From positions 103,382,501 through 103,446,500 of the forward strand of contig CM065815.1 of assembly GCA_033398695.1 (NCBI GenBank): a DNA stretch of 64,000 bases, in the 5' to 3' direction. Made by a program: the position numbers and the translations under genes. Origin of the DNA: Orobanche coerulescens. Its lineage: Eukaryota; Streptophyta; Magnoliopsida; Lamiales; Orobanchaceae. Each line of letters starts with the position of its first letter. The stretch's first letter is position 1. The notes beneath the pieces were generated by a model. The model ran no database searches. It was given only the letters and a program-made list of their open reading frames with translations, and was not told the origin of the DNA. Positions 19,501 through 63,400 of this stretch are shown here, one piece after another.

Positions 19501-21512
19501 TGTAACACCCCGAAGTTATTCAGGGCATATTACAGCGCCGTGAGCCCCTCCGTGGGCCCCACAAGGCTAAACATACGCGGAACTATAATTTTTGACCGAG
19601 AGGGTCTAAACACAACGAAATGAAGAATAATACAATGGGTATTCAAACCATAACCAATGTATTCAAATACATCACAACACAACACAATACTTCGGCAACG
19701 CAGGCCAGAACATCAAGGAAACTGAAAAGCGATACTCGAGTATTCAATAACCATTCCAGTACAACAACACTGAATGGAGGAACACTAAATATAACCAGAA
19801 ATAGGACACAGTATCACGCTTGCCCATCATCTTCATGCCAACCCGATATTTGCCTTTCCGCTCTCCTAGAACCTAAAATACATAAAAAGTATTTCCCCCA
19901 TAAAGGGGTTAGCCATCTAATAGCTAGTACAAGTATATCAAATATGAAATGCAATACTCCTCGACAATAAAGTAAAAGTAACCGAAAATTCATCCTTTAA
20001 AGACTAGTATTCCGGAATAACTAAATCTCATAGCATCACATCAATACATACATGATCAACCGTGGAACCGCACCAGAGGCTACAGAACCCTCAGAGGACT
20101 CGTCGGTCCATCCCAGAGTGGTTAGCTCATATTATCCATGGAATCACACCAGAGGCTACGAAACCCTCAGAGGATCCGTCGGCCCATCCCAAAGTGGATA
20201 TAAATAAACATGCCATTCATATATCTTACTTTCAAAGTCGAGAACGTACAATCATAAATATATACTTGCCTTTGAGACATCGAGAAATCGAACGGAAAAG
20301 AGTATGAGTTCGGTAGGTCCAAGAACGCTCTTCCGGTACCTAAACGATTCGTAAGGGATATGATAATCAATAATCCATACTCATAACTCATGAAGAAACT
20401 CCCAAAACCCGTCTACGATTCATGAAAATACAAGGGTAAACAACTAGAGGTTGGAAAATCACCCAAACCCTCACAAGTCCGAACACGACACAGACCAATC
20501 CATAAAATCGTAGGAAAAGCATATATACGGGATAGATACATCATAATCTCAAGGTTATCAAGCTTCAAAACGGATAAATCGGACAAATCTAAGAAAAACC
20601 CCAAAATTCCCAAAAATAGGGTTCTAAGGATTTTTACCTTGATTTGGACGATATAATGGATTGGATGTTGTTAAATCCTTATTCTCTAACCAAAGATGTT
20701 GATATCTGAAGAAGGATCGTCTTCGAACTCTCCAAATCGCCGAAACCCGCTGCTCTCGATCGAAAAAGTGAGAAAGATGAGAAAAATGACGAAATGGAAG
20801 TCAACTGTCCAATATATACTCGCCCAGTCTAGCGCACGCTATGCCTATAATATTAGCGTGTGCTAGCGGGGTCACTGGGTAGTCCAGTGGATTCTGTCGG
20901 CCCCATTAGCGTGCGCTAATCGCCTTCCTTTAGCGTGCGCTAGCCGAAAATGGTGTCCAGAAATCGGAGTCCAGAACCTACTATCCTCTGCCCTGCTCAA
21001 GTCTTAGCGTGCGCTACGGCGATAGCTTACCGTGTGCTACTCAGTCCTTATAGCGTGCGCTAGCCGAAGCCTAGCGTACGTTACTTGATAGTCCAGACAG
21101 CCTGACAATCTCACTGCCTCTGCCGACCAGCCCGTTAGCGTGCGCTACGGATGGATGTTAGCGTGCGCTATTGACCATGAATAGCGTGCGCTAACGAACT
21201 CCTAGCGCGCGTTAGCTGCCAGTCCAGAAAGCAGGATGAGTTACTGGTTCTGACCTGACTGGTCCCTTAGCGCGCGCTACGGCTCAAAGCTAGCGTAAGC
21301 TACTCAAGGAGAATTAGCGTGCATTAACCTAGGCCTAGCGTGCGCTATTTCTCTGACCCAGAACACTTCTGCAAGGTCTAAACAACACAATCATGATCCA
21401 AACAAGGTACGAAACTCTATAACAATATCGACAACATCACCAAGAGTTTACAGAGTGCCAAAATAGGAAGAACGACAAGGTCAAACAGTCAATAAAAAGT
21501 ACGGGCATTACA
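19501..21512 (-). repeat. Gypsy-C 3' LTR
   Basis: 2012 bp. Holds, in plus-strand order: a hairpin (19895-19908), two tandem copies of a roughly 80-bp segment with CCTCAGAGGA (20062-20210), a TATA box (minus TATATAT, about 20812-20818), and the palindrome array 20830-21347. A polypurine tract on the minus strand adjoins at 21513-21530. Confidence 0.95.
20830..21347 (-). promoter_or_regulatory. Array of sixteen 12-bp TAGCG..CGCTA palindromes, Gypsy-C 3' LTR
   Basis: Sites start at 20830, 20854, 20907, 20931, 21005, 21028, 21051, 21072, 21136, 21159, 21182, 21203, 21268, 21291, 21315 and 21336. The commonest form is TAGCGTGCGCTA (reverse complement TAGCGCACGCTA); TAGCGCGCGCTA is fully self-complementary. 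Three quartets with internal spacing 21-24 bp begin 131-132 bp apart. Seen on the minus strand, the array sits in U3 and ends 11 bp before the TATA box. Function is inferred. Confidence 0.85.
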
Positions 21513-24124: not shown

Positions 24125-26136
24125 TGTAACACCCCCCACGTTATTCAGGGCATATTACAGCGCCGTGAGCCCCGCCGTGGGGCCCACAAGGCTAAACATA
24201 TGCGGAACTATAATTTTTCACCGAAAGGGTCTAAACACAACGAAATGAAGAATAATACGAAGGGTATTCAAACCATAACCAATGTATTCAAATACATCAC
24301 AACACAACACAATACTTCGGCAACGCAGGCCGGAACATCAAGGAAACTGAAAAGCGATACTCGAGTATTCAATAACCAGTACAGTACAACAACACTGAAT
24401 GGAGGAACATTAAATATAACCAAAAACAGGACACAGTATCACGCTTGCCCATCATCTTCATGCCGACCCAATACCTGACTTTCCGCTCTCCTAGAACCTG
24501 AAATACATAAAAAGTATTTCCCCCATAAAGGGGTTAGCCATCGAATAGCTAGTACAAGTATATCAAATATGAAATGCAATACTCCTCTACAATAAAGTAA
24601 AAGTAACCGTCAATTCATCATTCCAAGACTAGTATTCCGAAATAACTAAATCTCATAGCATCACATCAATACATACATGATCAACCGTGGAACCGTCCCA
24701 GAGGCTACGGAACCCTCAGAGGACTCGTCGGTCCATCCCAGAGTGGTTAGCTCATATTATCCGTGGAATTGCATCAGAGGATACGAAACCCTCAGAGAAC
24801 CCGTCGGCCCATCCCAGAGTGGATATAAATAAACATTCCATTCATATATCTTACTTTCAAAGTCGAGAACGTACAATCATAAATATATACTTGCCTTTGA
24901 GACATCGAGAAATCGAACGGAAAAGAGTATGAGTTCGGTAGGTCCAAGAATGCTCTTCCAGTACCTAAACGATTCGTAAGGGATATGATAATCAATAATC
25001 CATACTCATAACTCACGAAGAAACTCCCGAAACCCGTCTACGATTCATGAAAATACAAGGGTAAACAACTAGATGTTGGAAAATCACCCAAACCCTCACA
25101 AGTTCGAACACGGCACAAACCAATATGTAAAATCGTAGGAAAAGCATGTATATGAGATAGATACATCATAATCTCAAGGTTCTCAAGCTTCAAAATGGAT
25201 AAATCGGACGAATCTAAGAAAAACCCCAAATTCCCAAAAATAGGGTTCTAAGGATTTTTACCTTGATTTGGACGATAGAATGGATTAGATGTTGTTAAAT
25301 CCTTGTTCTCCAACCAAATATGTTGATATCTGAAGAAGGATCGTCTTCGAACTCTCCAAATCGCCGAAACCCGCTGCTCTCGATTGGAAAAGTGAGAAAG
25401 ATGAGAAAAATGACGAAATGGAAGTCAACTGTCCAATATATACTCGCCCAGTCTAGCGCACGCTACGCCTCTAATATTAGCGTGCGCTAGCGGGGTCACC
25501 GGGTAGTCCAGTGGCTTATGTCGTCCTCGTTAGCGTGCGCTAATCACCTTACTTTAGCATGCGCTAGCCGGAAATGGTGTCCAGAAATCTGAGTCCAGAA
25601 CCTACTGTCCTCTGTCCTGCTCAAGTCTTAGCGTGCGCTACCGCGATAGCTTAGCGTGCGCTACGCAGCCTTTATAGCGTCCGCTAGCCGAAGCCTGGCG
25701 TACGTTACCTGATAGTCCAGACAGACTGACAACCTCACTGCCTCTACTGACCATCCCGTTGGCGTGCGCTACGGATGGATGTTAGCGCGCACTACTGACC
25801 ACGAATAGCGTGTGCTAACGAACTCCTAGTGCGCATTAGCTGCCAGTCCGGAAAGGAGGATGAGTTACTGGTTCTGACCTGACTCGTCCCTTAGCGCGTG
25901 CTACGGCTAAAAGCTAGCGTGCCCTACTCAAGGAGAATTAGCGTGCGTTAGCCTAGGCCTAGCGTGCGCTATTTCTCTGACCCAGAACACTTCCGCAAGG
26001 TCTAAACAACACAATCGTGATCCAAACAAGGTACGAAACTCTATAACAATATCGACAACATCACCAAGAGTTTACAGAGCGCCAAAATAGGAAGAACGGC
26101 AAGGTCAAACAGTCAATAAAAAGTACGGGTATTACA
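24125..26136 (-). repeat. Gypsy-C 5' LTR
   Basis: 2012 bp, collinear with 19501-21512 and the same length, with scattered base changes. The palindrome array is at 25454-25971. Primer site 24108-24119 (minus TGGTATCGGAAC) lies five bases inside. Confidence 0.95.
25454..25971 (-). promoter_or_regulatory. Palindrome array, Gypsy-C 5' LTR
   Basis: Counterpart of 20830-21347 with the same site order and spacing. Several sites differ by single bases from the other LTR, which shows their independent decay since insertion. Confidence 0.85.
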
Positions 26137-29609: not shown

Positions 29610-31677
29610 TGTAACACCCCCAAGATATTCGAGGTATATTATAGCGCCGTGAATCCCTATATGGGACCCACCAGGCTAAACAACCATCATACTCATCGAC
29701 TCGCGGAAACAACAAAATAACACCTCGTCATAAAGATGCAAAACAAAAATAATCCACCCGGTTCAACCGGTCAAACACAACACAATCATCCGACACAAAC
29801 ACAATAGACAACGATACAATCCGGACAAACAAGAACTCCTAAGTACTCGAGTACTTCTATTAGTTTACAAACCCACAAATGGTAAAAATATAGAAGACAA
29901 TAAGACACCACTCGTGCACAATCATCACGCACGGCCATCATCCGCATACTGGTCCAGTGCCCGTTCGTCTCGATTAACCTGACCTGAAATTCATAAAACG
30001 AATTTACCCAAAATGGGTCCCCAGAGGGGTTAGCAATTACGCTAGTACAAGTAACCAAATGAACAAATTACATCTTACACATATAGTCAAAGCAAGCAAT
30101 AATGAAACTTCGGTTGAAACACTCATTTCCGGAAACGCTAATATCAAAACACATTTGTGAAATACACCACAATTAACTGTGGATCCACCCCTCCGTAGAC
30201 CCCTACCGAGACCCCGTCGGATTTAACCCATAGTGGTTAAAAGCAAGCTCGCGGATCCACTCCTCCATGGACCCCTACCGAGACCCCGTCGGATCTAACC
30301 CACAGTGAGCATACACACACACACACACACAATTCTCATGCAATACTACTATGATAAGATTGTAAGTTCATAAGGGTACTTGCCTCGATTAATAGACGGT
30401 GACACGCACGGGAAGGAAGAGTCAAACACAACCACGAGGAATCGTCGAAACCGAACCTAACGATTCGAAGAATACAATCACAACCATTCCTAGACGAATA
30501 CGGAAAATGAAAGCACCCAAAAACCCACCGACGGTTCATGTATATTCGTACAAAAACAACAATGAGGGCGGACCACAACCAAACCCTCTCGATTATGCAA
30601 AAAACAACGAAATATACAATGAATCCGTAGGGAAACCAAGAATACTAACAAGATTAATTATATTCATCATGAATTAATCAACAATACGGAACGAATCGAA
30701 GAAAAACCCGAAAACCCCCAATTTACCCAAAAGTAGGGTTCTTAGAAGATTTACCTTGGATTAGGATGATAGATTCGTGTTGATGTTGATATTATACACC
30801 AAGAACTCAAAGAAGATGATGGTTGAGATGATTGGAGGAAGAAATCGCCCAAATCGCCAAAGCCGCGGGGGAAGGAGAAGAAATGAGAAAAGGCGTAAAT
30901 CTGGGTCAACTCCCTGGTTTATATAGCCAGGGGGCGTTAGCGCGCGCTAATCCTCAAAAGTTAGCGTGCGCTAATGGGACAAAACTCCAGTCCAGAAAGT
31001 TAACACCTCAGTCCAGTCCTCAGAGTTCTATACTGCTAGCGTACGCTACCCGAAGCGTAGCGTGCGCTAAGAGCCTCTCGGTAGCGTACGCTATCAGCCA
31101 TAGCGTGCGCTACCTGGACATCAGCCGAGTCCAAGTGAATCGCGATACTCATATGACCCGTTAGCGTCTGCTGGGCCAGACGTAAGCGTGTGCTAGTTGA
31201 CATCTCGGTAGCACGCGCTATCAGCCATAGCGTGCGCTACCTGGGCACCTGAGCGAGTCCAGGAGTAAACTGTCCAGTACTGGACTGACTCGCTAGCGTG
31301 TGCTACCAATCAAGCGTAGCGTGCGCTACTGAAGGATGCTTAGCGTGCGCTATACAATAATATTAGCGCGCGTTAGGCATGTGGTAACATGATTCTAAAC
31401 GCCAAAACGCCAAAACACGACTGAAGCATCAAACGGAACAATGCAATGCGCATGATAACATACAATGGATTTACGGCAACCCCGAAACGGCGGTTCCAAA
31501 CAACAATTACGAGAATCGGGTCAATGAGCAACGGAGAAGTTAACAATTGCGGAATTGAGTAGAATAAATCCGAAAATAAGTATTCTCGAGATACACATAC
31601 AGTCGCACACGAGCCACCAAGACAAGAAAAGCACTACATCAAGAAAGTACTGGGGAAAGAAAAATGCGGATATTACA
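29610..31677 (-). repeat. Gypsy-B LTR1 (outer 3' LTR)
   Basis: 2068 bp, beginning TGTAACACCCCC (canonical terminus). Contains a hairpin pair 30007-30029, a twofold 66-bp repeat with CCCCGTCGGAT (30180-30305), a CA microsatellite (about 30310-30331), a TATA box (about 30919-30925) and a palindrome array. Confidence 0.95.
30938..31375 (-). promoter_or_regulatory. Palindrome array, Gypsy-B LTR1
   Basis: Fourteen sites start at 30938, 30962, 31037, 31058, 31082, 31101, 31162, about 31185, 31209, 31228, 31294, 31317, 31341 and 31364. Spacing inside quartets is 19-24 bp and quartets begin 125-132 bp apart. Twelve bases separate the first site from the TATA box. Confidence 0.85.
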
Positions 31678-31712
31678 TTCTACCCCTCTAAAAATAAGTT
31701 TCGTCCCAAAAC

Positions 31713-36345: not shown

Positions 36346-36566
36346 ACTGATGTTAAAGAAGTAGCAAAGGCCATACGATGGTAACTACGTGAGGAAAAGC
36401 AACCACAATCAAGAATCGAAGGTGTGATGCAAGGAAACAAAGAACGGAGTAAGGAAAAACTTACGGGCACCGGTACCATCGGAATCATGGCAGCGTGATG
36501 ATGATGTGCAAAATGACACACAACAAGACCCAATAACGGACAAGCCTAGGTATCCATAAACCTAGC

Positions 36567-36580
36567 GCTCTCTGATACCA
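36567..36580 (-). promoter_or_regulatory. Gypsy-B primer-binding site, left unit
   Basis: The minus strand begins TGGTATCAGAG five bases inside LTR2, matching the iMet tRNA complement. A CTAGGT..ACCTAG hairpin follows immediately. Confidence 0.85.
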
Positions 36581-36585
36581 TTTTC

Positions 36586-38654
36586 TATAACACCCCCAAG
36601 ATATTCGAGGTATATTACAGCGTCGTGAATCCCTACATGGGACCCACCAGTCTAAACAACTATCATACTCATCGACTCGCGGAACCAACAAAATAACACC
36701 TCGTCATAAAGACGCAAAACAAAAATAATCCACCAGGTTCAACCGGTCAAACACAACACAATCATCCGACACAAACACAATAGACAACGATACAATCCGG
36801 ACAAACAAGAACTCCTAAGTACTCGAGTACTTCTATTAGTTTACAAACCCACAAATGGTAAAAAGATAGAAGACAATAAGACACCACTCGTGCACAATCA
36901 TCATGCACGGCCATCATCCGCATACTGGTCCAGCGCCCGTTCGTCTCGATGAACCTGACGTGAAATTCATACAATGAATTTCCCCAAAACGGGTCCCCAG
37001 AGGGGTCAGCAATTACGCTACTACAAATAACCAAATGAACAACTTACATCTTACACATATAGTTAAAGTATGCAATAATGAAACTTCGGTTGAAACACAC
37101 ATTTCCGGAAACGCCAATATCAAAACACATTTGTGAAATACACCACAATTAACCGTGGATCCACCCATCCGTGGAACCGACCCCATCGGATCTAACCCAT
37201 AGTGGTTAAAAGCAAGCTCGTGGATCCACCCCTCCGTGGACCCCTACCGAGACCCCGTAGGATCTAACCCATAGTGAGAATACACACACACACACACACA
37301 CAATTCTCATGCAATACTACTATGTTAAGATTGTAAGTTCATAAGGGTACTTGCCTCTATTAATAGACGGTGACACGCATGGGAAGGAAGAGTCAAACAC
37401 AACCGCGAGGAATCGTCGAAACCGAACCTAACGATTCGAAGAATACAATTACAACGATTCCTAGATGAATACGGAAAATGGAAAGCACCCAAAAACCCGC
37501 CTACGGTTCATGTATATTCGTACAAGAACAACAATGAGGGCGGACCACAACCAAACCCTCTCGATTACGCAAAAACCACGAAATATACCATGAATCCGTA
37601 GGGAAACCAAGAATACTAACAAGATTAATTATATTCATCATGAATTAATCAACAATACGGAACGAATCGAAGGAAAACCCGAAAACCCCCAATTTACCCA
37701 AAAGTAGGGTTCTTAGAAGATTTACCTTGGATTAGGATGATAGATTCGTGTTGATGTTGATATTATACACCAAGAACTCAAAGAAGATGATGGTTGAGAT
37801 GATTGGAGGAAGAAATCGCCCAAATCGCCAAAGCCGCGGGGGAAGGAGAAGAAATGAGAAAAGGCGTAAATCTGGGTCAACTCCCTGGTTTATATAGCCA
37901 GGGGGCGTTAGCGCGCGCTAATCCTCAAAAGTTAGCGTGCGCTAACGGGACAAAACTCCAGTCCAGAAAGTTAACACCTCAGTCCAGTCCTCAGAGTTCT
38001 ATACTGCTAGCGTACGCTACCCGAAGCGTAGCGTGCGCTAAGAGCCTCTCGGTAGCGTCCGCTATCAGCCATAGCGTGCGCTACCTGGACATCAGCCGAG
38101 TCCTGAAGTGAACTGCCCAGTACTCATATGACCCCGTTAGCGTGCGCTGCTGGACAGACGTAGCGTGTGCTAACAGCATCTCGGTAGCACGCGCTATCAG
38201 CCATAGCGTGCGCTACCTGGGCACCTGAGCGAGTCCAGGAGTAAACTGTCCAGTACTGGACTGACTCGCTAGCGTGTGCTACCAATCAAGCGTAGCGTGC
38301 GCTACTGAAGGATGCTTAGCGTGCGCTATACAATAATATTAGCGCGCGTTAGGCACAGGGTAACAACAGTTCTAAACGCCAAAACGCCAAAACACGACTG
38401 AAGCATCAAACGGAACAATGCAATGCGCATGATAACATACAATGGATTTACGGCAACCCCGAAACGGCGGTTCCAAACAACAATTACGAGAATCGGGTCA
38501 ATGAGCAACGGAGAAGTTAACAATTGCGGAATTGAGTAGAATAAATCCGAAAATAAGTATTCTCGAGATACACATACAGTCGCACACGAGCCACCAAGAC
38601 AAGAAAAGCACTACATCAAGAAAGTACTGGGGAAAGAAAAATGCGGATATTACA
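36586..38654 (-). repeat. Gypsy-B LTR2 (middle, mosaic LTR)
   Basis: 2069 bp, beginning TATAACACCCCC (terminal G to A). From 36586 to 37673 it matches LTR3 at sites that distinguish LTR3 from LTR1. From 37704 onward it matches LTR1, apart from some changes private to LTR1. Palindrome array 37919-38351. Confidence 0.95.
37919..38351 (-). promoter_or_regulatory. Palindrome array, Gypsy-B LTR2
   Basis: Same organisation as LTR1: a pair followed by quartets with 19-24 bp spacing, a short distance from the TATA box on the left. Site variants follow LTR1, not LTR3. Confidence 0.85.
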
Positions 38655-38689
38655 TTCTACCCCTCTAAAAATAAGTTTCGTCCCAAAAC

Positions 38690-41600: not shown

Positions 41601-43324
41601 CGACTCCACCATCCTCCACCTTCAAGGCATAGCACCAATAACTGGTACACCCCTTTCGCAGGAGTCTCATCGCCTTCAAGGCATTAATAACGAACTTCTG
41701 GTTTCCCCTCTTTCGCCTTGCGAAAGAGTGCTCGGTGCCATCATCAGCTAACATAGTGATGATTCTCATGCGGTAGTTCATGATTGCACCATGCCGCTCG
41801 AGCCAATCATCCCCAAGAATTAAATCCTCACCCTCAATACCCACGACAATAAGATCTGAGAGCCAAGCCCTCTCGTAAATAATCACAGCACAATCTCGGA
41901 TCTCCCGATCACTAACGATCCTATCCTCGCTAGGACGTTTAACGATGAAAGGCTCGCAGGGCGACAAACAATCAAAACCCAGACGACGCACACATTCCAA
42001 AGAGACAAATGAATGCGTATCACCGGAATCGAAAAGCACACTGACAGGATGAGAATGAATGTGAACAGTACCTGTGGCAACGGTAGTGGCCAGATCATCA
42101 GCCCTCCTCATATCGTAAACTCGTGGATGGGCGGAGCCGACACTAGAAGCTCCCCCTCTGGCGGTCTGACCCCGACCTCTCCCTCGACTGGCACTCGGTG
42201 GGGACTGAGAATCAAACGATCCTTGATTCATGCTTGGTTTCCTGGGCGTTGGAATGGAAGCCTGGGCACCAAGAATTCTCTCTCTCTCGGCACAGAAAGC
42301 AGCCTTGTGGCCTGGCTGGCCACACCGATTACACGTCAACAAAGGGCTCGGATAATTATGACTGATGTGGCCGGGCTGGCCACAGTTAAAACACTTCACC
42401 TCCCGAGAAGGGGCACCGGCGACCGCTGGGAACCTCGATAGAGCAGTGGGCCACCACCAGCGGAAAAGTTAGCAGACTGGAATTTATGCTGACCCCCACA
42501 TTTGTGGCCCGAAAAATTCCCGACGGACTTCTGCTTCTTGCTCTCGCGGGCCGCCTCACTAGCCGTCATAGACATATCATAAGCAAGGGCCCTACTCTGA
42601 TAATCCTTCAAGGTAGTGCAGACGAGCCGGACATGTAGTCACGAATCGACAATTTCATCCGCCTGGAAAAGTGAAAAATTTTGTCGCTCTCCTCGATAAC
42701 TTGGGTCTTGACGTAGCCCAACTCTTTGTTGAAATTGGCAACAGCTTGAGAAACAGGAATATCCCGAGGCTGAGCATCATAAAAGGCATGAACTCGAGCT
42801 TGTCTAACTGGCCACGGGCAATATTTGGTCTCCATTAGGTCCTTGAATTCCGCCCACGAAGCAACGTGGTCCTTAGGCCCAACAGCCTCCCACCAGTCAG
42901 TAGCGTCCCCAGTGAGAAAGTACTAGGCAATAGGGACCTTGCGGTCCTCGGGACAGTTGGTGGCAACAAAGACTTTAGATATCTCCTTGATCCACCCTTC
43001 CCAACCGATCGGGTCTGATGCTCCCGAAAACTGAGGAGGATGCATCTTGATGACATCTTGAAGCCAACGGTCTGCTCTGCCCCGATTAGCATGTGCCGGA
43101 TTAGGGTTATGAACCACCTGAGCTATAGCCGCCATCTGGTTCACCATTTGCTGCATGACAGCCGCAATTCCAAGGTCGGCGCCATCTTGGGAAGAAGCAT
43201 GGCTATGATGGTCACCAGTGCTGCTGGCTCCTTAAGAATGCGACGTGGCCGCCCCACCGGCTGCCCCACGTCCCCGGCCGCGTCCACGGCCACGACTACG
43301 ACCACGGCCTCTTCCAGCATCCAT
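38690..43324 (-). pseudogene. Gypsy-B right unit gag-pol
   Basis: Near-copy of the left unit. Start ATG at 43324, early stop near 43231, gag in pieces (43156-42396), knuckles and protease in the long open stretch 42399-41104, which also includes RT up to the MTFG break. FIDD at 41022-41033. RNase H carries the same extra-A frameshift near 40393. Integrase has the same Asp-to-Tyr change (39728-39730) and the same internal stop. The tail ends at 38690. It preserves the linker and RT start ([15 protein letters not shown]) that are garbled in the left unit. Its own garbled spot lies at about 42415-42450 in gag. The shared lesions show that mutation preceded duplication. Confidence 0.93.
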
Positions 43325-43564
43325 ACTGATGTTAAAGAAGTAGCAAAGGCCATACGATGGTAACTACGTGAGGAAAAGCAACCACAATCAAGAATCGAAG
43401 GTGTGATGCAAGGAAACAAAGAACGGAGTAAGGAAAAACTTACGGGCACCGGTACCATCGGAATCATGGCAGCGTGATGATGATGTGCAAAATGACACAC
43501 AACAAGACCCAATAACGGACAAGCCTAGGTATCCATAAACCTAGCGCTCTCTGATACCATTTTC

Positions 43565-45623
43565 TATAACACCCCCAAGATATTCGAGGTATATTACAGC
43601 GTCGTGAATCCCTACATGGGACCCACCAGTCTAAACAACTATCATACTCATCGACTCGCGGAACCAACAAAATAACACCTCGTCATAAAGACGCAAAACA
43701 AAAATAATCCACCAGGTTCAACCGGTCAAACACAACACAATCATCCGACACAAACACAATAGACAACGATACAATCCGGACAAACAAGAACTCCTAAGTA
43801 CTCGAGTACTTCTATTAGTTTACAAACCCACAAATAGTAAAAAGATAGAAGACAATAAGACACCACTCGTGCACAATCATCATGCACGGCCATCATCCGC
43901 ATACTGGTCCAGCGCCCGTTCGTCTCGATGAACCTGACGTGAAATTCATACAATGAATTTCCCCAAAACGGGTCCCCAGAGGGGTCAGCAATTACGCTAC
44001 TACAAGTAACCAAATGAACAACTTACATCTTACACATATAGTTAAAGTATGCAATAATGAAACTTCGGTTGAAACACACATTTCCGGAAACGCCAATATC
44101 AAAACACATTTGTGAAATACACCACAATTAACCGTGGATCCACCCATCCGTGGAACCGACCCCATCGGATCTAACCCATAGTGGTTAAAAGCAAGCTCGT
44201 GGATCCACCCCTCCGTGGACCCCTACCGAGACCCCGTAGGATCTAACCCATAGTGAGAATACACACACACACACACACAATTCTCATGCAATACTACTAT
44301 GTTAAGATTGTAAGTTCATAAGGGTACTTGCCTCTATTAATAGACGGTGACACGCATGGGAAGGAAGAGTCAAACACAACCGCGAGGAATCGTCGAAACC
44401 GAACCTAACGATTCGAAGAATACAATTACAACGATTCCTAGATGAATACGGAAAATGGAAAGCACCCAAAAACCCGCCTACGGTTCATGTATATTCGTAC
44501 AAGAACAACAATGAGGGCGGACCACAACCAAACCCTCTCGATTACGCAAAAACCACGAAATATATCATGAATCCGTAGGGAAACCAAGAATACTAACAAG
44601 ATTAATTATATTCATCATGAATTAATCAACAATACGGAACGAATCGAAGGAAAACCCGAAAACCCCCAATTTACCCAAAAATAGGGTTCTAAGAAGATTT
44701 ACCTTGGATTAGGATGATAGATTCGTGTTGATGTTGATATTATACACCAAGAACTCAAAGAAGATGATGGTTGAGATGATTGGAGGAAGAAATCGCCCAA
44801 ATCGCCAAAGCCGCGGGGGAAGGAGAAGAAATGAGAAAAGGCGTAAATCTGGGTCAACTCCCTGGTTTATATAGATAGGGGGCGTTAGCGCGCGCTAATC
44901 CTCAAAAGTTAGCGTGCGCTAACGGGACAAAACTCCAGTCCAGAAAGTTAACACCTCAGTCCAGTCCCCAGAGTTCTAGACCGCTCGCGTACGCTACCCG
45001 AAACGTAGCGTGTGCTAATAGCCTCTCGTTAGCGCGCACTATCAGCCATAGCGTGCGCTACCTGGACATCAGCCGAGTCCAGAAGTGAACTGCCCAGTAC
45101 TCATCTGACCCCGTTAGCATGCACTACCGGATAGATGTAGCGTGTGCTAACAGCGTCTCGGTAGCGCGCGCTATCAGCCATAGCGTGCGCTACCTGGGCA
45201 CCTGACCGAGTCTAGGAGTAAACTGTCTAGTAATGGACTGACTCGCTAGCGCGCGCTACCAATCAAGCGTAGCGTGCGCTACTGAAGGATACTTAGCGTG
45301 CGCTATACAATAATATTAGCGCGCGTTAGGCACAGGGTAACAACGGTTCTAAATGCCAAAACACATCTGAAGCATCAAACGGAACAACGCAATGTGCATG
45401 ATAACATATAATGGATTTACGGAAACCCCGAAACAGCGGTTCCGAACAACAATTATGAGAATCGGGTCAATGAGCAACAGAGAAGTTAACAATTGCAAAA
45501 TTGAGTAGAATAAATCCGAAAATAAGTATTCTCGAGATACACATACAGTCGCACACGAGCCACCAATACAAGAAAAGCACTACATCAAGAAAGTACTGGG
45601 AAAAGAAAAATGCGGATATTACA
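43565..45623 (-). repeat. Gypsy-B LTR3 (outer 5' LTR)
   Basis: 2059 bp, beginning TATAACACCCCC like LTR2 and ending ATTACA before the CTGAT duplication. Its TATA-side and array half differ from LTR1 and LTR2 at many positions. Primer site at 43546-43559. Confidence 0.95.
44886..45328 (-). promoter_or_regulatory. Palindrome array, Gypsy-B LTR3
   Basis: Same site order and spacing as LTR1. Several sites here are the fully self-complementary TAGCGCGCGCTA where LTR1 has TAGCGTGTGCTA or TAGCACGCGCTA; others are decayed. Confidence 0.85.
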
Positions 45624-51479: not shown

Positions 51480-51860
51480 GGTGCAGTTGGTAAATCGAGA
51501 CCAACTCTGTACTGCACATGATGGCTGCACACAATGGCAGCCATCGTGTGTTACCATCATGTGCATCCTGCCCACGTTCATCGGGTGCTGTAGTCGTGTG
51601 CCCACTATGGATGCCATGACCGTGTGCGCACGATGGTCAGTCCCATCGTGGGCACGGTCATGGGCTGCTGCTGTCATGTGCCCATGATGGTTGCCCTGAC
51701 CCTGCGCGCATGATGGTCAGTCCCATTGTGGACACGGTCATGGGCTATCATCGTGTGCGCACACGATGGTTGCCATGCCATGACTGTGTGCACATGATGG
51801 CTAGTCTCATTGTGAGCACGATCATGGATGCCATCGTGTGCCCATGAACTTTGGGTTTTT
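51480..51860. repeat. GCACACGATGG/CATCGTGTGC inverted-repeat cluster (MULE left side)
   Basis: Many direct and inverted copies of a CCATCGTGTGC-type unit separated by TGGTCAGTCCCA-like linkers. 51749-51768 is a perfect 20-bp palindrome. GATGGCTGCACACAATGGCA at about 51520 recurs inverted near 61960. Confidence 0.8.
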
Positions 51861-53040
51861 TGACCAATTTGATTTAATATGTTATCTATTTGGATGTTTT
51901 GTGATTCTAGAATTGCTTGTTCAAACATTAAAAACTACATAACATCTTATGCAAACTCATACTTATTATTTCATGTAATTAATTAGTATATGAGCTATTT
52001 CATACGGGTGATGAACTTATATATACGAACTTATACATTGAGAACATATAGACTACACATGATATGCAATAGATTATGTTAATTCAGTCTGTAACTTTTT
52101 AAATAAGTATATTGTTAACAAATATTTGTTAATATATGAGTAACAATACGTAAATTGGCGAGTTATTTTATAAATTAGTGAAAAATATGCATGTTCTTAT
52201 GCACACGATGACTAGTCCCATCATGGGATCGATCGTGTGCTCCATCGTGTGCACATGAACTTTGGATTTTTTTGCCAATTTGATTTAATGTGTTATCTAT
52301 ATGAATATTTTGTGAATCTAAAATTGATTGTTCAAATATTAACAACTACATAACATCTTATGCGAACTTGTATTTATTATTTCGTGTAATTCATTAGTAT
52401 ATGAACTATTTCATACATATGATGAACTTATATGTATGAACATATACATATAGACTACACATGATATGTAATAGATTATATTCAGTCTATAACTATATAA
52501 ATAAGTATATTGTTAACAAATACTTGTTAATATATAAGTAACAACACGTAAATTGGCTTAGAAATTAGTGAAAAATGTGCATGTTCTTGTGCATAGGACG
52601 GCTAGTCCCATAGTGGGCACGATCGTGTACTACATCGTGTGCCCATGAACTTTGGTTTTTTTGACAATTTGATTTAATGTGTTGTCTATATGGATATTTT
52701 TTGTTATTCTAAAATTGCTTGTTCAAACATTAGAAATTACATAACATCTTATGCAAACTTGTATTTGTTATTTCCTGTAATTAATTACTATATGAGATAT
52801 TTCATACAGATGATGAACTTATATGTACGAATTTATCATTGAGAACATATAGACTACACATGATATGCAATACATTATGTTAATTCGTTTCATAACTTTA
52901 TAAATAAGTATATTGTTAACAAATACATGTTAATATATAAGTAACAACACGTAAATTGGCGAGTTATTTTAGAAATTAGTGAAAAACGTGCATATTCTTG
53001 TGCACACGACGGCTAGTCCCATTGTGGGCACGATCGTGTG
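51843..53040. repeat. Three tandem units of about 400 bp
   Basis: CATGAACTTTGG marks the units at 51843, 52254 and 52644 (periods 411 and 390). Each contains the same order: AT-rich body, ATAGACTACACATGATATGC, AATAAGTATATTGTTAACAA, then a CATCGTGTGC segment. The third ends near 53040, where sequence diverges. Confidence 0.85.
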
Positions 53041-53324
53041 CTCCATCGTGTGTGGACGTGGATATAATGACATGGTGACACCATGGACACAGTGACACGT
53101 AGTTCCCAAATTTCAGATTTGCACACGATGGGAGCATACGATCGCTGTCATCGTGGGTTACCATCGTGTGCACTACAGAGGGCAACATCAAATTTCAAAT
53201 AAAATCATATTTTTTTAATTCACGAACATAACTTACAGTCAGAATGATGAATCAATACATAGATATTCCATCGAGAATATCAGCACTTGATTGTTGTTAG
53301 TCACAAATATAATCTATAAGCAAT

Positions 53325-54217
53325 TTAAGTTTCACAGTAGGGACATTCCCTTATGTAATAGTCATCATTACGACAAATGGTACATCTCTTCTTCTGCCGG
53401 TGCCTTTGCCTCGTTTGTTCTCCATCCATTTCTTGAGTTCCTTCTGGAGTGATATTCAAATCCACACCACTTATGGGAATGAATGCTTTGTAATAATATC
53501 TATTGTGGCTGGTTCCCTTACACCTACCGCACACCTGAGGCCGTCTACCTGTGGGCAAATTTTCAACAACGGACCGTGCAGACCATCCTTTGATGGTCAA
53601 CTTGTCGTACCTCCTCTAGAGGTAAGCAAACAATGGATGTGATCTCCGGTGGGATATTCCACTCATCAGGATATGGGATAGGATTAATATGTTCCTTATA
53701 AGTCTCTCTAAGGCCTTGTTGCTTGAAATAACGACTAACGAAATCATACACAGACAAACTATTACCAGCGCGCCTGTTACAATAAGCAATTATATCACAC
53801 ACATAGAGAAGAATATTGAATGATGTGCACATTGAAGCAAAACAATTATCTTATAACGGAAACATCATGACAACATGCAATATAATCCAAATCAAACTCC
53901 CGACAATAACATGTCCAGGTTTGAAAGTCGACCTCATAAGAAACTTTGTTTTCTTCGAATTTATAAACATGTGGGGTGGTAGCTCGAACAGTAAGAGTCT
54001 GACTAGTTGCACAGAGTTAGAGATCTTTTTAAAAGTGTGAACTGTCAACTCATGGTCTCTTGATGCAACTTCTCCTCGCTTCTCATCGAATCAATTCTCT
54101 AAAATTAGGCAGAATATCTCAAGTAACGAGCAAACCGGTAAACACCTCACCCACAACATAAGATTATTAAAGCATTCAACGATATTGGATGTCAAGAAGT
54201 TATATTATCGTACCAGA
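53325..54217 (-). pseudogene. MULE transposase C-terminal part with SWIM zinc finger
   Basis: From 54217 in broken frames: LTSNIVECFNNLMLWVR and LPVCSLLEIF (typical post-core segment), then TWTCYCREFDLDYIACCH (about 53935-53880), a CxCx(n)CxH SWIM finger. Next come RRAGNSLSVYDFVSRYFK with INPIPYPDEWNIPP, and a C-terminal knuckle CGRCKGTSHNR. The stop is at 53325. SWIM fingers are diagnostic of MuDR/MULE transposases and are thought to bind DNA. Several frameshifts and stops are present, so it is inactive. 53041-53324 downstream holds only MULE repeat units. Confidence 0.88.
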
Positions 54218-54995
54218 TGTTGGAGCAATATTGGTCGGTATCGCCATTTGAAAATAGAGTTATAAAACTCTTTCACATTGCGGAAGCAATTTAAATAACG
54301 GTGTGGAAAATAAATCGACACAAGATTTATAGAGGTTCGACCAAACGTGCCTACATCCTCTCTTCGGTATCTTTTTCTCTAGGATGAAGATCAACCTCTG
54401 CACCTATCTTCTATCGATCGAGGGATAACCATTACAAACTCGTCTTCTATCGGTTCGAATAAACCGTTCAATCACTTGTATTTTTGTCAGTCCAAGTTAA
54501 ACCGTTTTCCTTTTCTATTGGACAAGGAATCAATCAATCTAGCTTTCTATAGATACTAGATAAAACTCACGTAGATATCAATTGTGATTCTAACAATTCC
54601 GGATCCTTGATCCTAATAACACAAAATCCAATCGTATCCTTTCTTTTTCCTCTCTTGTATGATTTCGTGTATAACACTCGATCACTAAACAATATAAGCT
54701 CAAATACAACAACTAAAATGATTACAATGATATCTCAAGTATGAATGCTTTTCTCAATGTTGTTACGTGGTTTGATACCAAATGGTTTGGTATTTATAGC
54801 CATTTTCATCCAACTAGCCGTTAGCTCCTTTTGACTATGTAGCGTCGCTAACCTTTCTTCATAGAGTGCGTTATGGCTCATTACATATGTTATATGTATG
54901 CTGTAGCGTACGTTATCAGCTTTCAGTTTCAGTCCAGTAGCTTTTGTTTCTTCCTTTACATACGTTGTCAATTCGTATTACGTACGTTAATCAGT
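54218..54995 (-). repeat. Copia D 3' LTR, truncated
   Basis: Collinear with the first 780 bases of the 5' LTR. It has a TATA box (minus CTATAAATA near 54790) and six palindromic sites at 54840, 54862, 54881, 54904, 54956 and 54978. The deletion breakpoint falls about 5 bases beyond the last site. Confidence 0.9.
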
Positions 54996-55879
54996 CTCGG
55001 CAATTCTTCGCAAAGTGGCCTGGTTTTCCACAGATTCGACAGTTGTTGTCGAATTTCTTAGATTCACCCATTTTTGAGGTCTTTCTTTCTCCGGTTTAAT
55101 AAGTTTTGAAACTTATTAATATTTTTGGCATAATATGCCGATTCTTCGTCACTTTCATCCACCGGGATTTATTTCTTTCGAGACATCTTAGATTTCATAG
55201 CTATTGTTCTTTCCTTCGGTTTCGGCTTGTTGTTCCGTGATTTTAGAACTATCTCATAATTAATTAGCGAACTAACGAGGGTGCTAAAGTTTAGCGTATT
55301 GAGATCTTTATATTCCATGATAACCGTCACAGTGCCGTCCCATTCGCTAGGTAGTGATCGTCTGATTTTCTTGACTTTCTCACTGCTCACTAGCGGTTTT
55401 CCGAACGAATCAAGTCCATTAGTAATGACCGAAAATCGGTCGAGCATGTTGGTGATGGACTCGTCACCCTTCATCATGAATAACTCGTAGTCATGGAGAA
55501 GCATATTGAACTTCGTCTCCTTGACTTGATTTGTGCCTTCGTTTGTGATTTCTAACATCTTCCAAATCTCTTTGGCGCTATCACAAGAAGATATCTGGTT
55601 GTGTTCTTCCGGATTTAAAGTACAATATAATAGTTGCGTAGCTTTGCAATTATAGTGATCATTTTTCCAATCGGGATCATTGTACTCTTCGAAACTTTTA
55701 AGCATACCATCGGATTTGATTAGAATTTTCAGACCAAGTCAGATCACTTTCCACAATTCGATGTCGTAAGCTCGAATGAATATAGACATCTTCTTCTTTC
55801 ATGTCATGAAGTTTGATCCATCGAAGAATGGAGGTCGGTTTAGCGCAAGACCTTCAACTGGAGCAAATTGAAGAGCCAT
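54996..55879 (-). pseudogene. Copia D gag
   Basis: Start ATG at 55879 (MALQFAPVEGLALNRPPFFDG, copia-type N-terminus shortly after the primer site). A frameshift occurs near 55720. 55705-55169 is open with UBN2-type gag motifs (SCDSAKEIWKMLEITNEGT, KIRRSLPSEWDG). A CCHC knuckle CRICGKPGHFAKNC lies near 55050-55010, in another frame. The sequence then runs into the truncated LTR. No enzyme domains remain, so it could only have moved, if at all, with help from a related element. Confidence 0.88.
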
Positions 55880-55936
55880 CAGATCTTTTCTCCTCAGATG
55901 TTATGCCACTTCTAGGAGTACCATTCTGATACCAAT

Positions 55937-57170
55937 TGTTGGAGCAATATTGGTCGGTATCGCCGTTTGGACATAGAGTTATAAAACCCTGTTGCGTTGC
56001 GGAACCGATTTAAATAACAGTGCGGAAAATAAATCGACACAGGATTTATAGAGGTTCGTCCAAACGTGCCTACATCTTTTCTTCGGTATCTTTTCTCTAG
56101 GATAAAGATCAAACTCTGCAACTCTATTCTATTGGTCGAGGGATAACCATTACAAACTCGTCTTCTATCGGTCCGAGTAAACCCTTCAATCACTTGTCTT
56201 TTTGTCGGTCCAAGTTAAACCGTTTTTCTTTTCTATTGGACAAGGCATCAACCAATCTAGCTTTCTATGGGTACTAGATAAACCTCACGTAGATATCGAT
56301 TGTGATTCTAATAATGCCGGATCCTTGATCCTAATAACAACGAATCCAATCATATCCTTTCTTTTTCCTCTCTTGTATGATTTCGTGTTTAACACTCAAT
56401 CACTAAACAATATAAGCTCAAATACAACAACTAGAATGATTACAATGATATCTCAAGTATGAATGCTTTTCTCAATGTTGTTGTGTGGTTTGATACCAAA
56501 TGGTTTGGTACTTATAGCCATTTTCATCCAACTAGCCATTAGCTCCTTTTGACTATCTAGCGTGCGCTAGCCTTTCTTCGTAGCGTGCGTTATGGCTCAT
56601 TACGTACGTTATATGTATGCTGTAGCATACGTTATCGGCTTCCAGTTTCAGTCCAGTAGCTTGCGTTTCTCCCTTTACGTACGTTGTCAATTTGTATTAC
56701 GTGTGTTAATCAGTCCCTGTAGCGTACGTTAACAATACGCTGTAGCGTACGTTAACCTCCTATAACCATTGTATGCAATTGTCAAAGTATCCGTTTGAAT
56801 CTTGACTTTGACCAGAATCTTTCCAACGTTCATCTGTTTGAATTCGTATTCAAACTTCGTTACGTACGTTAACACATATGTGTTATGTATGTTAATCACC
56901 TTCGGTAGAGTACGTTAAGCTTGTGACTTAGCATGCGTGAAACACATCTGTTAACTTGACTTCAGGAAACTTTGAACTCGTCTAATTTGCAGGTAGCCTC
57001 GTTAGCGTGAGCTAACTTTGATTACTAGCGTGCGCTAGCTTTGCAGTTTGTGTGACTTTTTGCGTCTTCGACTTCTTTGTTGATTTGATTGCTTTTTTGT
57101 TGTATTCCTTTGTATAGCAACTAATCATCAAAACTCGATTAATGAATATTTGGAATAAAATATTCCAACA
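55937..57170 (-). repeat. Copia D 5' LTR
   Basis: 1234 bp, TGTTGG..CCAACA. The primer site just to its left reads TTGGTATCAGAATGG on the minus strand (about 55922-55936). TATA-like CTATAAG at about 56511-56517. Palindrome array 56558-57037. Confidence 0.93.
56558..57037 (-). promoter_or_regulatory. Palindrome array, Copia D 5' LTR
   Basis: Fourteen sites in groups of 4+4+4+2 start at 56558, 56581, 56600, 56623; 56675, 56697, 56720, 56743; 56860, 56883, 56906, 56929; 57003, 57026. Spacing is 23 bp in most steps. End sites are TAGCGTGCGCTA; inner ones drift to TTACGTACGTTA and TAGCGTACGTTA, keeping self-complementarity. It lies upstream of the TATA box (41 bp, or about 16 bp if a degenerate site near 56533 is counted). 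Confidence 0.82.
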
Positions 57171-57936: not shown

Positions 57937-60900
57937 TGTAAAACCCGTAATTTCGATTTCCGGTAATTTCTTTTTTTTCGGCGGAAGTCCGTTTTGACGA
58001 CTCTCTCATGACCGTTTCGTCATTATGAGAATGATTAATTCTACACTTTTTGTCATCCGAGTTCGTTTCGGTGTTGTTTTGTTGAGTTTCGTGCTTTTTA
58101 GCGACTTTTTCCGCACTTGAGTTCGATTCTTGCGAATATCGTTCGAAACTGCTGTTTCGAGTTTCCCGTAAGTCCGTTTAACTTTGTTAGATGTGTTGTG
58201 AACTTCGGTTTGGTTATTCGATCACGTATCGTGATTTCCGGGCGTTTTGGGCCATTTTGTAATTTCTTAAAAGTTACGGGTATCCGTATCTGTAATTGTT
58301 GTCTCGACCCGTTTCTTGGTCGCGTATGATTAATTATTGTATTATGTTTTCATTTCGGGTCGAGGATGTTGTCCGCAAACTTTTCGTCGTGTTCGTTCCG
58401 TACGTTTTCGGGAATCGAGTCGTCGGGCCCTGGTGGCCGGGCACTGGCCGGACGGTTGCGGGACTGGCCGGATGATTGCAGGCACCAGCCGGACGAGTGC
58501 GGCAGGAACTTGCGTAGCGCACGCTACGGCCGGGAGGCAGCGCACGCTACGCCCGGTTGTCTGCGCGCTAGCGGGCCGGGGCAGTAGGGCAGTGGGGGTA
58601 CTGGACTCGGTGGATCGGCAGGTAGCGCACGCTACTGCCGGACACTACGTACGCTACGGCGGACAGGTAGCGCACGCTACGGCCGGAAGGCTGCGCACGC
58701 TACCTGGCCGAGCAGTCTAGTCTAGGAGGTCACTGGATTGCGGCCTGGGCCGATAGCGCGCGCTAGCTCGGCAGCCTAGCGCACGCTAGTCCGGCCCAGT
58801 ATAAATGTGGCTGAGCAGCCTCATTTTCACTCATTTTTCATTTTCTTTCTTTTCGATCCGCGGCTGGAGCTTCGGAGGTGACGAAGCCATGTTGTTTAAC
58901 AACAAATCCACGAAGTTCTTGAGTTCATAACATCAATCAATCATCCGTTATCATCCTTTGATCCAGCGAAACAAAGGTAATCTTCCTTAGAACCCTAATT
59001 TCGTGAATTTGGGGGTTTTTGCATTTTTGTCCGATTCGTTCCGTGTTGTTGATTAATTCATGATGGGTATGATTAATCTTGGTAGTATTCTTGTGTTTAA
59101 CATCATTTAATCCATTGTTCTTCGTCGAATCGAAGTATATTTCTTGATTTCCTTCAAATCGACTTTTTGGGGGATTTGTTCTCGATCTCGTTTTCCATCC
59201 GTTTTTGTTGGATAAATTGTGGTTAAATGATGTTGTTAAACATATTCTATGGATTGTATATCCATATTTCGACTTGGAATCCGTTTTCGTGTTTTGTCGG
59301 GACGAATCGTGTTCTTGGCCGTTTTGGGGAAAACACTTGAACTTTCGTCATTTGTTCTTTGAATTCAACAGCTTTGAGTCGTGTTATGGAATTCATTTTT
59401 GTTGTTGTATTTGTCCTTCATAGTTTATTATTGCGAGTTGGCGATCGGTGGAGTGGGCGGGTTCGTAGTCGGCTCGTGTCAACCTACTTTGGTCGATTCT
59501 CCGTGTTGTTCTTATTCGAGGCATGTACCTTGCTCATTCATTTCTTATTTTGTGGATATGATGATCGGTGATTGTCTTGGTGTGTTTGTTTGGTTGTTTG
59601 AAATGTAGTTTCAAAAGATTTCGGTTTGGCCTCGTTAAAGGCTTTCTTTCAAAATGCGTGTGTTTTGTGAACGGTGTGTTTTGGGAATTGATTATGATTT
59701 GATTATTTTGAACGTTGAAGGCTTTGATGACACCCCTGTTGTTTAAAGTATGGAATCATGTATTCCGTGTTTAATCTTGTTATTGTGATTTGAAGAGTTT
59801 GATAACGGCGCCGAGTAAGTGGCCATCTCTAGTAAGTATTCTTGATGAACTTACATTCTTAGCATATTAGTATTGCATGAGTAACGTGTGTGTGTATGCT
59901 CACTACAGGTTAGATCCGACGGGGTCTCGGTAGGGGTCCACAGAGACGTGGATCGACGAGCTTGCTTTTAACCACTACGGGTTAGATCCGACGGGGTCTC
60001 GGTAGGGGTCCACAGAGACGTGGATCGACGGTTAATTATGGTGCATTTTAGAAATGTGACTCAATTATGGCATTTCCGGAAATGAGTGATTTTGAACGGT
60101 TTTCATGATTGCATGCATCGACTAAGTGTGTAATAGGTAAGTTGTTCATTTGGCTTACTTGGCTAGGATGGCACTGGAGTATTTTGTTGTTTGTGTTAAA
60201 TCCTTTAATTGTGGATTTTGATGTTGGAAGACGAACCTTGTTGTCGTTCTCGTGTATTGTGAGTTGATGAGATTTCGGGCTAAAATCCCAATGGTTTTGT
60301 AAAAGTCATTTTACGGATTTGGGGCTAAAATCCCAACGGTTTGGTAAATGTCATTTTACGGAAAGTAAACCTTTGGGGCGGTGACCCCTTTCGTCTTTTG
60401 GGTTTTGGAAAAGTAGGATTTGATAATCCTAAATTGACTTCTATTAAAACTCTCGATGGCATTCTAAACCGTTTTATAAATTATTTCCATTGATTTGTGA
60501 TCTTTCGATTTTGAAATGTTTTCTCAAACTCTTGCCTCGGGAAGTATTTTTCGTTTCGTTTGGATCTTGAGGATTTCTGGTTATTGTTATTCGTGGAATG
60601 TGAATTGTATGGCTCGTATTTGCACTTTGTTCTTGCACTAGCAAAACAGTGGAGTTTTGCTAACCCCCGAGTATTCGGGGGATGGATGTCTATTTTGCAT
60701 TCAGGTTTTGGAGCATAACACAGGGTCGGCACGAAGGATGATGAAAGATGATCGATACTAATCACATGAGGAACCGTACATCGTGTATTGGTTCAGTTGT
60801 ACTTTATTTTCCGCTGCTATATTTTTCCCGTTGTACGGGTGTGGTTGTGTTTTGACCCCTGCGTGGGCATGAGTTGTATTTGAGTTGTATGTATTTATTG

Positions 60901-61037
60901 AAAGACCAAATCGGTCTACTGAGTCATTTTAGCCTTAAAGGCATGGTTGAGTTGTTATATGTTGTTACCAGCCTGGTAGATCCTTGAGGAAAGGTTCTAC
61001 GGCGTGTAATATCCCTGAGCGGATTGGGGGTGTTACA
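57937..61037 (+). mobile_element. Solo gypsy LTR E (chromovirus, Gypsy-B relative) in the MULE
   Basis: 3101 bp starting TGTAAAACCCG and ending GGGGGTGTTACA, with perfect target duplication TAGTT (57932-57936 and 61038-61042). No internal region remains, so it is a solo LTR from LTR-LTR recombination. It shares the GATCCGACGGGGTCTCGG segment with Gypsy-B LTRs in reverse orientation. TATA box at 58800-58806. A perfect hairpin lies at 60664-60681. A 70-bp tandem duplication lies at about 59909-60032. It interrupts the MULE transposase between its N-terminal region and DNA-binding domain. Confidence 0.94.
58515..58788 (+). promoter_or_regulatory. Palindrome array, solo LTR E
   Basis: Nine sites start at 58515, 58538, 58559, 58623, 58645, 58668, 58691, 58754 and 58777, mostly TAGCGCACGCTA, with 21-23 bp spacing within groups and 63-64 bp between groups. 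The last site ends 11 bp before TATAAAT at 58800. Confidence 0.85.
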
Positions 61038-62128: not shown

Positions 62129-63399
62129 TGTTGGGATAAACATTCATGTTTCGATAAATTACCAATATACAGCAAGAAGTCTTAAAGGAGTCAGAATGTT
62201 GTTACTGTTAGGAGTCTCCATACAGCCCGTCCATACAGCAAAGAGATCTTCTACAATCCATCCTACAGAGCCTACCTAATACAGCGAAGAAACTTAATGT
62301 GTTGGATACAACATACAGTCTGAAGGTGGTTTACTTTTGAAAAGTAAAATACCTCCAACAAGACTAAACATAAAAAGCTTTAAACCGTTGCGACATAAAC
62401 ATTGTTTATTCATAAAGTATTCATGGTTAAAGCAGTATTTATTGATGATATGACATCATTTAATGCAGTCGGAGAGAGACAAATTTGAACACCCTGAAGA
62501 GCATTTAATGCAAAGACAGAAAGGATGTTTGAAGGATTAAATGCGATCTGCTTTAATTCAAACATTAAGCATCCGCGAATCAAGAGACAGACGTCAACAT
62601 CTCACCAACCAACAACGGCTACATTTATAACGGATATATTTCCAAGGTTATAAATAGCTCCAAGCAAGAGGACTTTAAGACACACGAAAAGCTATTCATT
62701 ATCGCGCATATTCTGACAAGATTACTCAGACAATCTAGCTATTCAAGAGCAGCATATTTCGTGAGCATACAACAATATCCAAGTGAAGAAATATACTAAG
62801 TCCCCAATCCAAACAGCACAGCATACCATGATTGTTCATCAAAGATAAAGCTGCTGTTTGAGGTTTGTTCAACCCTTTCCATTGAAATTATCATTAGCTC
62901 GGTGTGGACTAAGGATCCTTGCGTATTCCAACCTATGTGGGAAGAATAGCATTAAAGACGAAGCTTCAATCTATGTGAGATGAAGCGAGTCAGAAAGAGC
63001 TTGAAGCGAATCTGTGTGAACGGAAAAAGATACAGTCCCTGTATCAATCTGTGTGAATGATATAGAGACAGGTTTAGTTAAAGTCACGTAGTTGTGTACA
63101 TAGTGATTTTAATAAACTCTTTACTCCTGTGTGGAGGACCAGTGGACGTATAGGGGTTTACCTCGAACCACTTTAAACTGTGTGTTATTTACCTTTTGTC
63201 TTTACTGTTTTCATTCTATTGTGATTTATATGTATACATTGTAAAATCCTATACGCATCAAGCAAACAGGAGAACACCTAGTTGCTGTATTTACAGCAAC
63301 TCACCCAACATACTTCCGCTACGCAATTAAATTTGAAAATCGTACAACTTATTGTGCTCTTACTTTCTATGCTGTTTATTGTATACTTAGTGACTAACA
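62129..63399 (+). repeat. Copia G 5' LTR
   Basis: 1271 bp, TGTTGGGATAAAC..ACTAACA, the inverse-orientation relative of the element F LTRs. ATACAGC direct repeats near the U3 start. TATA box TATAAATA at 62649-62656. Confidence 0.9.
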
Positions 63400-63400
63400 C

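Follow-up and report, generated by a model that had tools for sequence, protein, structure and literature searches.

The question raised by this locus is how one short palindrome, repeated at a fixed pitch, came to occupy the promoter region of long terminal repeats (LTRs) in two unrelated retrotransposon superfamilies, copia and gypsy, and what would read it there. The sequence analysed, hereafter the window, is a 64,000 bp stretch of contig CM065815.1 of Orobanche coerulescens, and coordinates refer to it unless otherwise stated. It contains a copia element, Copia D, whose 5' LTR lies on the minus strand at 55937..57170 (about 1.23 kb, sense TGTTGGA...TCCAACA), its ends and the junction CAACA/ATTGGTATC being placed by pattern. 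The palindrome array occupies 56558..57037 of the minus strand and consists, in sense order, of 2, 4, 4 and 4 sites separated by gaps of 74, 117 and 52 bp. Sites start at 56558, 56581, 56600 and 56623 (group 1), at 56675, 56697, 56720 and 56743 (group 2, with an extra poor site at 56657), at 56860, 56883, 56906 and 56929 (group 3) and at 57003 and 57026 (group 4). The preliminary description had reported groups of 4+4+4+2 sites at almost exact 23-bp spacing; these were confirmed, with a pitch of 19–23 bp that is mostly 23 bp, as were the sequence TAGCGTGCGCTA at both ends of the array and the TTACGTACGTTA-type sites inside it. The end sites are imperfect palindromes with the centre CA on the element's sense strand, and the promoter-proximal run is 23-19-23.

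Sites were counted against the sense form TARCGYRCGYTA. Five exact sites, 10 with at most one mismatch and 14 with at most two were present in the 480 bp, where the count of 14 takes in 56657 and leaves out 56883, which has three mismatches. Dinucleotide shuffling of the array stretch (1,000 replicates) gave means of 0.005, 0.07 and 0.65 for the three classes, with maxima of 1, 2 and 4, which rules out a chance origin of the 14-site array. The remainder of the Copia D LTR held no site at up to two mismatches. The array has a G+C content of 41%, begins some 135 bp inside the LTR and covers about 480 of the approximately 650 bp upstream of the TATA-like box. This box, TATAAGT (56510..56516, minus strand), was identified by sequence and by its offset pattern across copies and families, and lies 41 bp past the last site. 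A second short motif, GTCCAG/CTGGAC, was found by sequence inside the array at 56651..56656 (no strand assigned) and is enriched in other families.

Adjacent to the LTR, ATTGG and the primer binding site TATCAGAAT were located by junction comparison at 55923..55936 (minus strand), the primer binding site itself spanning 55931-55923. A broken copia-type gag fragment follows on the minus strand at 55000..55880 (approximate limits; frame 0 with stops), and then a truncated 3' LTR (54211..54996, minus strand; 91% identical to 55930-56715), which retains the TATA-proximal part of the array over the portion covered, with decayed sites; the 3' part of the element is deleted in this copy. The gag of a family copy (L031) matched five proteins, four of the five with PF14223. 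Gag-only frames in the window copy and in the inner region of L033, together with four LTR pairs only 3.2–3.5 kb apart, suggest that Copia D is a non-autonomous family. The inner pieces L031, L032 and L034 contain other sequence, such as a gypsy-integrase-like frame in L031, which is probably nested.

The available text on Sireviruses gives their junction as CA/ATTGG plus TATCAGAGC (PMC2829016). The window copy, CAACA/ATTGG/TATCAGAAT, matched this at 7/7 positions of the junction and 7/9 of the primer binding site, and the same junction type, reading ATTGGTATCGGAG, was found in copies L007, L008, L009, L022 and L026. A polyC-rich integrase signal, expected roughly 21 bp ahead of the LTR terminus, could not be recognised by eye in the terminal 42 bases of the Copia D LTRs inspected; L079 has AACCCCCCTTCTAG. 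Because the junction is present and the polyC signal is absent, Copia D may be termed Sirevirus-like on sequence grounds.

Six further arrays in the window belong to gypsy elements. On the minus strand they lie in the first (20830..21347) and second (25454..25971) LTR of gypsy A and in LTRs 1, 2 and 3 of gypsy B (30938..31375, 37909..38351 and 44886..45328). On the plus strand, the solo LTR of gypsy C carries an array at 58515..58788, oriented by LTR similarity to gypsy B. TAGCGCGCGCTA sites occur in all three families, which are chromovirus-like and may belong to Tekay. RT_RNaseH adjoins the gypsy A LTRs, and gypsy B has a Tf2-1-like SH3 domain and a Chromo match of 20.7 bits, below the cut-off of 25.1. 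Two other copia LTR regions of the window had no sites with up to two mismatches, one at 4850-7918, with the AGTGG variant of the junction, and one whose limits were set by eye at about 62130-63400; the array is therefore not general in such elements.

Several structural features of these elements were also recorded. Gypsy B (29612-45623) has three LTRs and two internal regions in an LTR-internal-LTR-internal-LTR tandem (29612-38654 vs 36588-45623, 97.6%), which probably arose by recombination. The gypsy C solo LTR (57937-61037, about 3.1 kb) is flanked by 5-bp repeats, TAGTT/TAGTT. At about 59905-60035 it holds two direct copies of the repeat GGTTAGATCCGACGGGGTCTCGGTAGGGGTCCACAGAGACGTGGATCGACG, and this region matches the LTRs of gypsy B as well as gypsy remnants adjacent to the copia locus L080. 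Overlapping direct repeats of several hundred bases, 75–88% identical, lie at 51564-53052.

To follow the array through the Copia D family, the genome (3.65 Gb, 1,279 contigs) was searched with the 480-bp array, which gave 41 match rows: one for the window, 39 for other places and one for a 61-bp fragment next to one of the latter (40 of 3,457 candidates scored). Since this query is blind to copies without an array, the R/U5 part (55940-56500) was used as a second query and gave 41 rows (40 of 7,303 candidates scored). From these, 20 copies were chosen at places absent from the array-query matches, and 521 bases were inspected at the expected array position. At least eight sites (up to two mismatches) were present in 19 of the 20, and one site in L140; the array is not absent from other family members. 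In copies L004-L010 the pattern was 2, 4, 4 and 4 sites with gaps of 74, 117 and 52 bp, with small exceptions. In the 19 further copies the pitch of 23 and the 23-18/19-23 end persisted in most, and the longest gap ranged from 84 to 130 bp, often 107 or 117–119. Across L133-L152 the longest inter-group gap took values of 84, 92, 107, 117–119 and 128–130, as if by about one helical turn per change.

Conservation was assessed on 27 loci plus the window (28 copies, some being both LTRs of one element). Variation at A/T columns was 0.019 within sites and 0.051 in spacers, a difference with one-sided p=0.026; for C/G and CpG columns the trend had the same direction but was not significant (p=0.35 and 0.28). 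When the 14-site mask was slid by up to 14 bp, context-corrected variation had its minimum exactly at register 0. On the sense strand, outer sites were mostly TAGCGCACGCTA, and inner sites shifted towards TAACGTACGTAA.

The palindrome is extremely abundant genome-wide. The exact pair TAGCGYRCGCTA-N2-32-TAGCGYRCGCTA occurred 499,704 times and the pair of TAGCGYRCGCTA with N36-66 316,230 times, each with 0 in the reversed control. The D-type pair TAACGTACGTWA-N2-32-TAACGTACGTWA occurred 36,094 and 35,936 times on the two strands (controls 1 and 0). Elsewhere, a prokaryote collection of 257 Gb yielded 10 stretches with the canonical pair, and two viral contigs had it as well. Two viral-collection contigs that were read, L001 and L002, hold one palindrome pair each, most likely unrelated.

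The families read are a local sample, the places listed by the genome-wide pair searches all lying at the start of one contig. For superfamily assignment, coding pieces between two array copies were translated stop to stop without read-through, their tie to the flanking LTRs being one of position. Copia and gypsy reverse transcriptases fall in different Pfam families. Copia pol (PF07727, RVT_2) was detected in L072, beside a D-type array (LTR L079), and in L098, beside a canonical array of 20 sites (LTR L093). Gypsy reverse transcriptase (PF00078, RVT_1) was detected in L068, L069, L070 and L071 beside canonical arrays and in L074 beside a D-type array (LTR L078). Both motif types thus occur in copia and in gypsy, and motif type is not tied to superfamily. 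Array loci outside this set have a superfamily by sequence clustering at most, and L073 and L099-L102, examined to class further arrays, gave no safe assignment. At L038 (C1:105534), a four-site array fragment lies between copia pol coding sequence and organelle-like DNA, both recognised by eye; this looks like a rearranged locus.

The arrays follow a common grammar. At 20 loci the short pitches were 23 (85 cases), 24 (29) and 18 (10), with all others amounting to 11 together, and four-site runs of 23-18-23 or 23-18-24 occurred 28 times in a set that includes overlapping loci. The 23-18-23 run adjoins the promoter in gypsy L078 and in copia L079-L082, and also in L083 and L091, which are gypsy by clustering only.

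Twelve families were oriented without the motif, 11 by coding strand and gypsy C by LTR similarity to B. With a pattern widened after inspection of L078, a TATA-like match followed the last site by no more than 45 bp in 12/12 (1.18 expected from shuffled downstream bases), and one was present at the opposite array end in 1/12. The TATA offset was 11–14 bp in eight gypsy families and 19 bp in L096, and 41, 41 and 38 bp in three copia families. Orientation by the motif fails on arrays that are close to symmetric, L078 and L096 among them. With it, 13 of 20 loci had a TATA within 45 bp, L078 being counted although it was read backwards. Among the remaining seven loci, L083 and L096 show a TATA on reversal, L089 has a decayed TATA, and L084, L086, L087 and L097 have none. 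In L035, L051 and L094 the TATA often lies within a short inverted repeat (GTCCAGTATAAATACTGGAC in L035), partly built from the second motif. Many families are related, so these counts are not independent.

The sites are also biased in sense. Central dinucleotides on the sense strand were CA (77), TA (22), CG (15) and TG (8). CpG decay of a single ancestral palindrome predicts CA = TG at the centre and was rejected on the excess of 77 over 8.

Gaps between groups (at least 36 bp) were tested for helical phasing, with homologous spacers of similar length counted once and inherited lengths of related families partly remaining. For 91 clusters from 250 spacers, the period was about 10.8 bp with a resultant of 0.396, reached by 0 of 3,000 jittered controls; without spacers that hold a decayed site (n=57) the resultant was 0.475, reached by 1 of 3,000. 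When each lineage was represented by a single array (9 clusters, n=22), a like period and strength were obtained with p=0.052, or p=0.28 for any period, so that at lineage level the helical period is no more than suggestive.

Inter-group spacers of 14 of 19 representative families, three of them copia, contained CTGGAC/GTCCAG, where the best shuffled 6-mer reached 8 (200 letter shuffles; families picked and oriented by hand). Copia D falls outside the 14, its gaps being split by weak sites, though it has the GTCCAG noted above. In the window the motif occurred 29 times in the 5.5 kb of array regions vs 17 times in the other 58.5 kb, and the extended form CTGGACT is a second motif common to copia and gypsy arrays. 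Among the top 7-mers in these spacers was AAGTCAA/TTGACTT, in 8 of the 19 families, a W-box-like sequence.

The observation that started this analysis is therefore real and broader than claimed, the Copia D array exemplifying a module that gypsy and copia families of this genome have in common. As to the earlier suggestion of a portable module, the part that stood is that the same motif and arrangement recur promoter-proximally in many copia and gypsy LTR families; capture of a whole block was unsupported. On the copia side the finding is more to be expected than first supposed, because palindrome arrays before the TATA are described for Sireviruses (PMC2829016).

We consider that the array is probably a proximal enhancer of the copia promoter, read by one or more host factors common to gypsy and copia, a reading drawn from sequence features. 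On this view a dimer of a single sequence-specific nuclear protein, or of a small family of such proteins, made by the host, would occupy each 12-bp site; such a candidate factor would bind both TAGCGCACGCTA and TAACGTACGTTA. With sites in groups of two to four at a pitch of 23, often 23-18-23 by the promoter, and gaps close to an integral number of helical turns, a multi-protein complex would form on one DNA face, assisted by a second factor at CTGGAC/GTCCAG. The complex would activate, rather than repress, a TATA at a distance set by superfamily, 11–19 bp in gypsy and 38–41 bp in copia. Such a multi-dimer activator is inferred from the pre-TATA position, the sense bias, the fixed pitch and the phased gaps; the use of the sites by two superfamilies points to a factor of host origin, and gypsy and Sirevirus-like copia elements would employ the same code since both rely on it.

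Known plant factors were compared by eye with the half-site TARCGY, and no core considered fits every variant. BZR (CGTGYG), SPL (GTAC), CAMTA (CGCG), FHY3 (CACGCGC) and bZIP (ACGT) cores each miss some site variants. For NAC proteins, the text seen of PMC4081100 gives sites TTNCGT[G/A] or T[G/A]CGT, bound as palindromes by dimers, with the palindromic site searched as CGTN7-8ACG. TTACGT in the D-type sites overlaps this motif, but the half-sites abut here rather than being N7-8 apart, and the TAGCGCGCGCTA sites of gypsy A, B and C are without the CGT[G/A] core, so that NAC fits the D-type sites but not these.

How the superfamilies came to share the module is a separate matter, and comparison of the spacers bears on it. 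With sites masked, copia D aligned to gypsy A, B and C with scores of 16, 18 and 16; among 200 trials with shuffled spacers, 78, 32 and 23 respectively scored at least as high. Among the controls, the score of gypsy A-B was reached in 1/200 and that of A-C in 0, but that of B-C, although these LTRs are related, in 43/200. Because the B-C control fails, the test detects fairly recent sharing only, and an old exchange would escape it. The possibility that the array is a fragment of a gypsy LTR found no significant alignment outside the sites with gypsy A, B or C in this weak test, and insertion of such a fragment in one copy was ruled out by the family-wide array together with this limited-power result. 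When nine copia sequences were compared with the other arrays after masking, matches beside the arrays were mostly gypsy remnants, and one match lay inside, a second palindrome alike at 24/25 nt (96%) in copia L093 and gypsy L095, the sole shared stretch found inside masked arrays.

Alternatively, one transfer or a small number of them may have carried a whole regulatory cassette between gypsy and Sirevirus-like copia elements, by template switching or recombination of nested elements, with the spacers drifting afterwards and the sites being kept. The non-trivial grammar shared next to the promoter, the second palindrome of L093 and L095 and the similar gap lengths would fit such a transfer. 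Against it stand the spacers of copia D, for which no homology to those of gypsy A, B or C was detected (a comparison in which related B and C also fail), and the TATA offset, which differs by superfamily. We regard it as doubtful, if slightly less so than before the B-C control failed. For convergence, the closest precedent by analogy comes from Brassicaceae, where COPIA families, ONSEN among them, have repeatedly acquired heat-responsive elements that are species-specific in most families, with ONSEN sites having grown by duplication of a proto-site, as far as described in the text seen of PMC5059998. The likeness lies in host-factor sites within LTRs, factor binding in our arrays being predicted; the differences are that heat-shock factor sites and COPIA families are concerned there, and a palindrome, both superfamilies and up to 20 sites (L093) here.

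A function at the level of RNA or cruciform structure, in which the palindromes would attract small RNAs as a silencing liability or decoy, appears improbable. Bousios and colleagues reportedly proposed a small-RNA or silencing role for maize Sirevirus palindromes in 2016. The sites are indeed palindromic, and RNA folding of the D array gave z = -2.1 with 3/100 shuffles as good, which is not decisive. Sirevirus LTR palindromes are small-RNA mapping hotspots in the material available from PMC5311732. The sense centre is, however, asymmetric (CA 77, TG 8), which a hairpin does not need, the units are of 12 bp only, and the fixed pitch, phasing and TATA offset better suit a DNA-bound protein. Binding of a retrotransposon-encoded or domesticated transposon protein that counteracts silencing, as in the VANC system of VANDAL elements, where an anti-silencing protein goes with dense short-motif arrays, is very unlikely, for although dense short motifs in very many copies would resemble VANC-type arrays by analogy, the L033 D-family inner region has gag frames only and the scanned coding pieces, which are pieces and not whole elements, contained only the usual gag/pol domains.

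Sirevirus LTRs offer a close parallel. The text available from PMC2829016 describes a short palindrome that recurs 3–14 times in the 3' LTR, chiefly in the upper half of that LTR and before the TATA, with function unknown and a core CGG-CCG except in Tnd-1; its comparison is within copia. Copia D shares the palindrome cluster in the upper LTR shortly before the TATA, and the CA/ATTGG junction. Its array begins about 135 bp into the LTR vs 200–400 bp for the cluster there, the commonest site form here has CG-YR-CG rather than CGG-CCG, and chromovirus-like gypsy elements here have the palindrome, its pitch and the second motif as well. Insertion preference for palindromes is a further subject, treated in the part seen of PMC6911290. 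A literature search by exact palindrome strings (titles and abstract openings) returned no retrotransposon paper among the matches listed, which likewise included no report of this palindrome in retrotransposons and no single array common to copia and gypsy. As far as these partial sources go, the palindrome itself, its sharing with gypsy and its grammar are new, and Sirevirus palindrome arrays before the TATA are known (PMC2829016).

More tentatively, one host factor with a partner at CTGGACT might be a common transcriptional switch of the dominant LTR retrotransposons across the copia/gypsy divide, through sites that probably number about a million and obey a fixed grammar with helical phasing. 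These elements would have arrived at a host operator code by convergence, or exchanged it across superfamilies, and would constitute for the host a vast reservoir of ready-made response arrays. If one factor reads the arrays, one protein and one motif would be connected with hundreds of thousands of site pairs, common versus separate control of unrelated retrotransposons would become directly testable, and capture versus convergence of modules between superfamilies could be answered by comparison of related species. The array would also be a cis-element for annotators to seek near genes in this and related large plant genomes.
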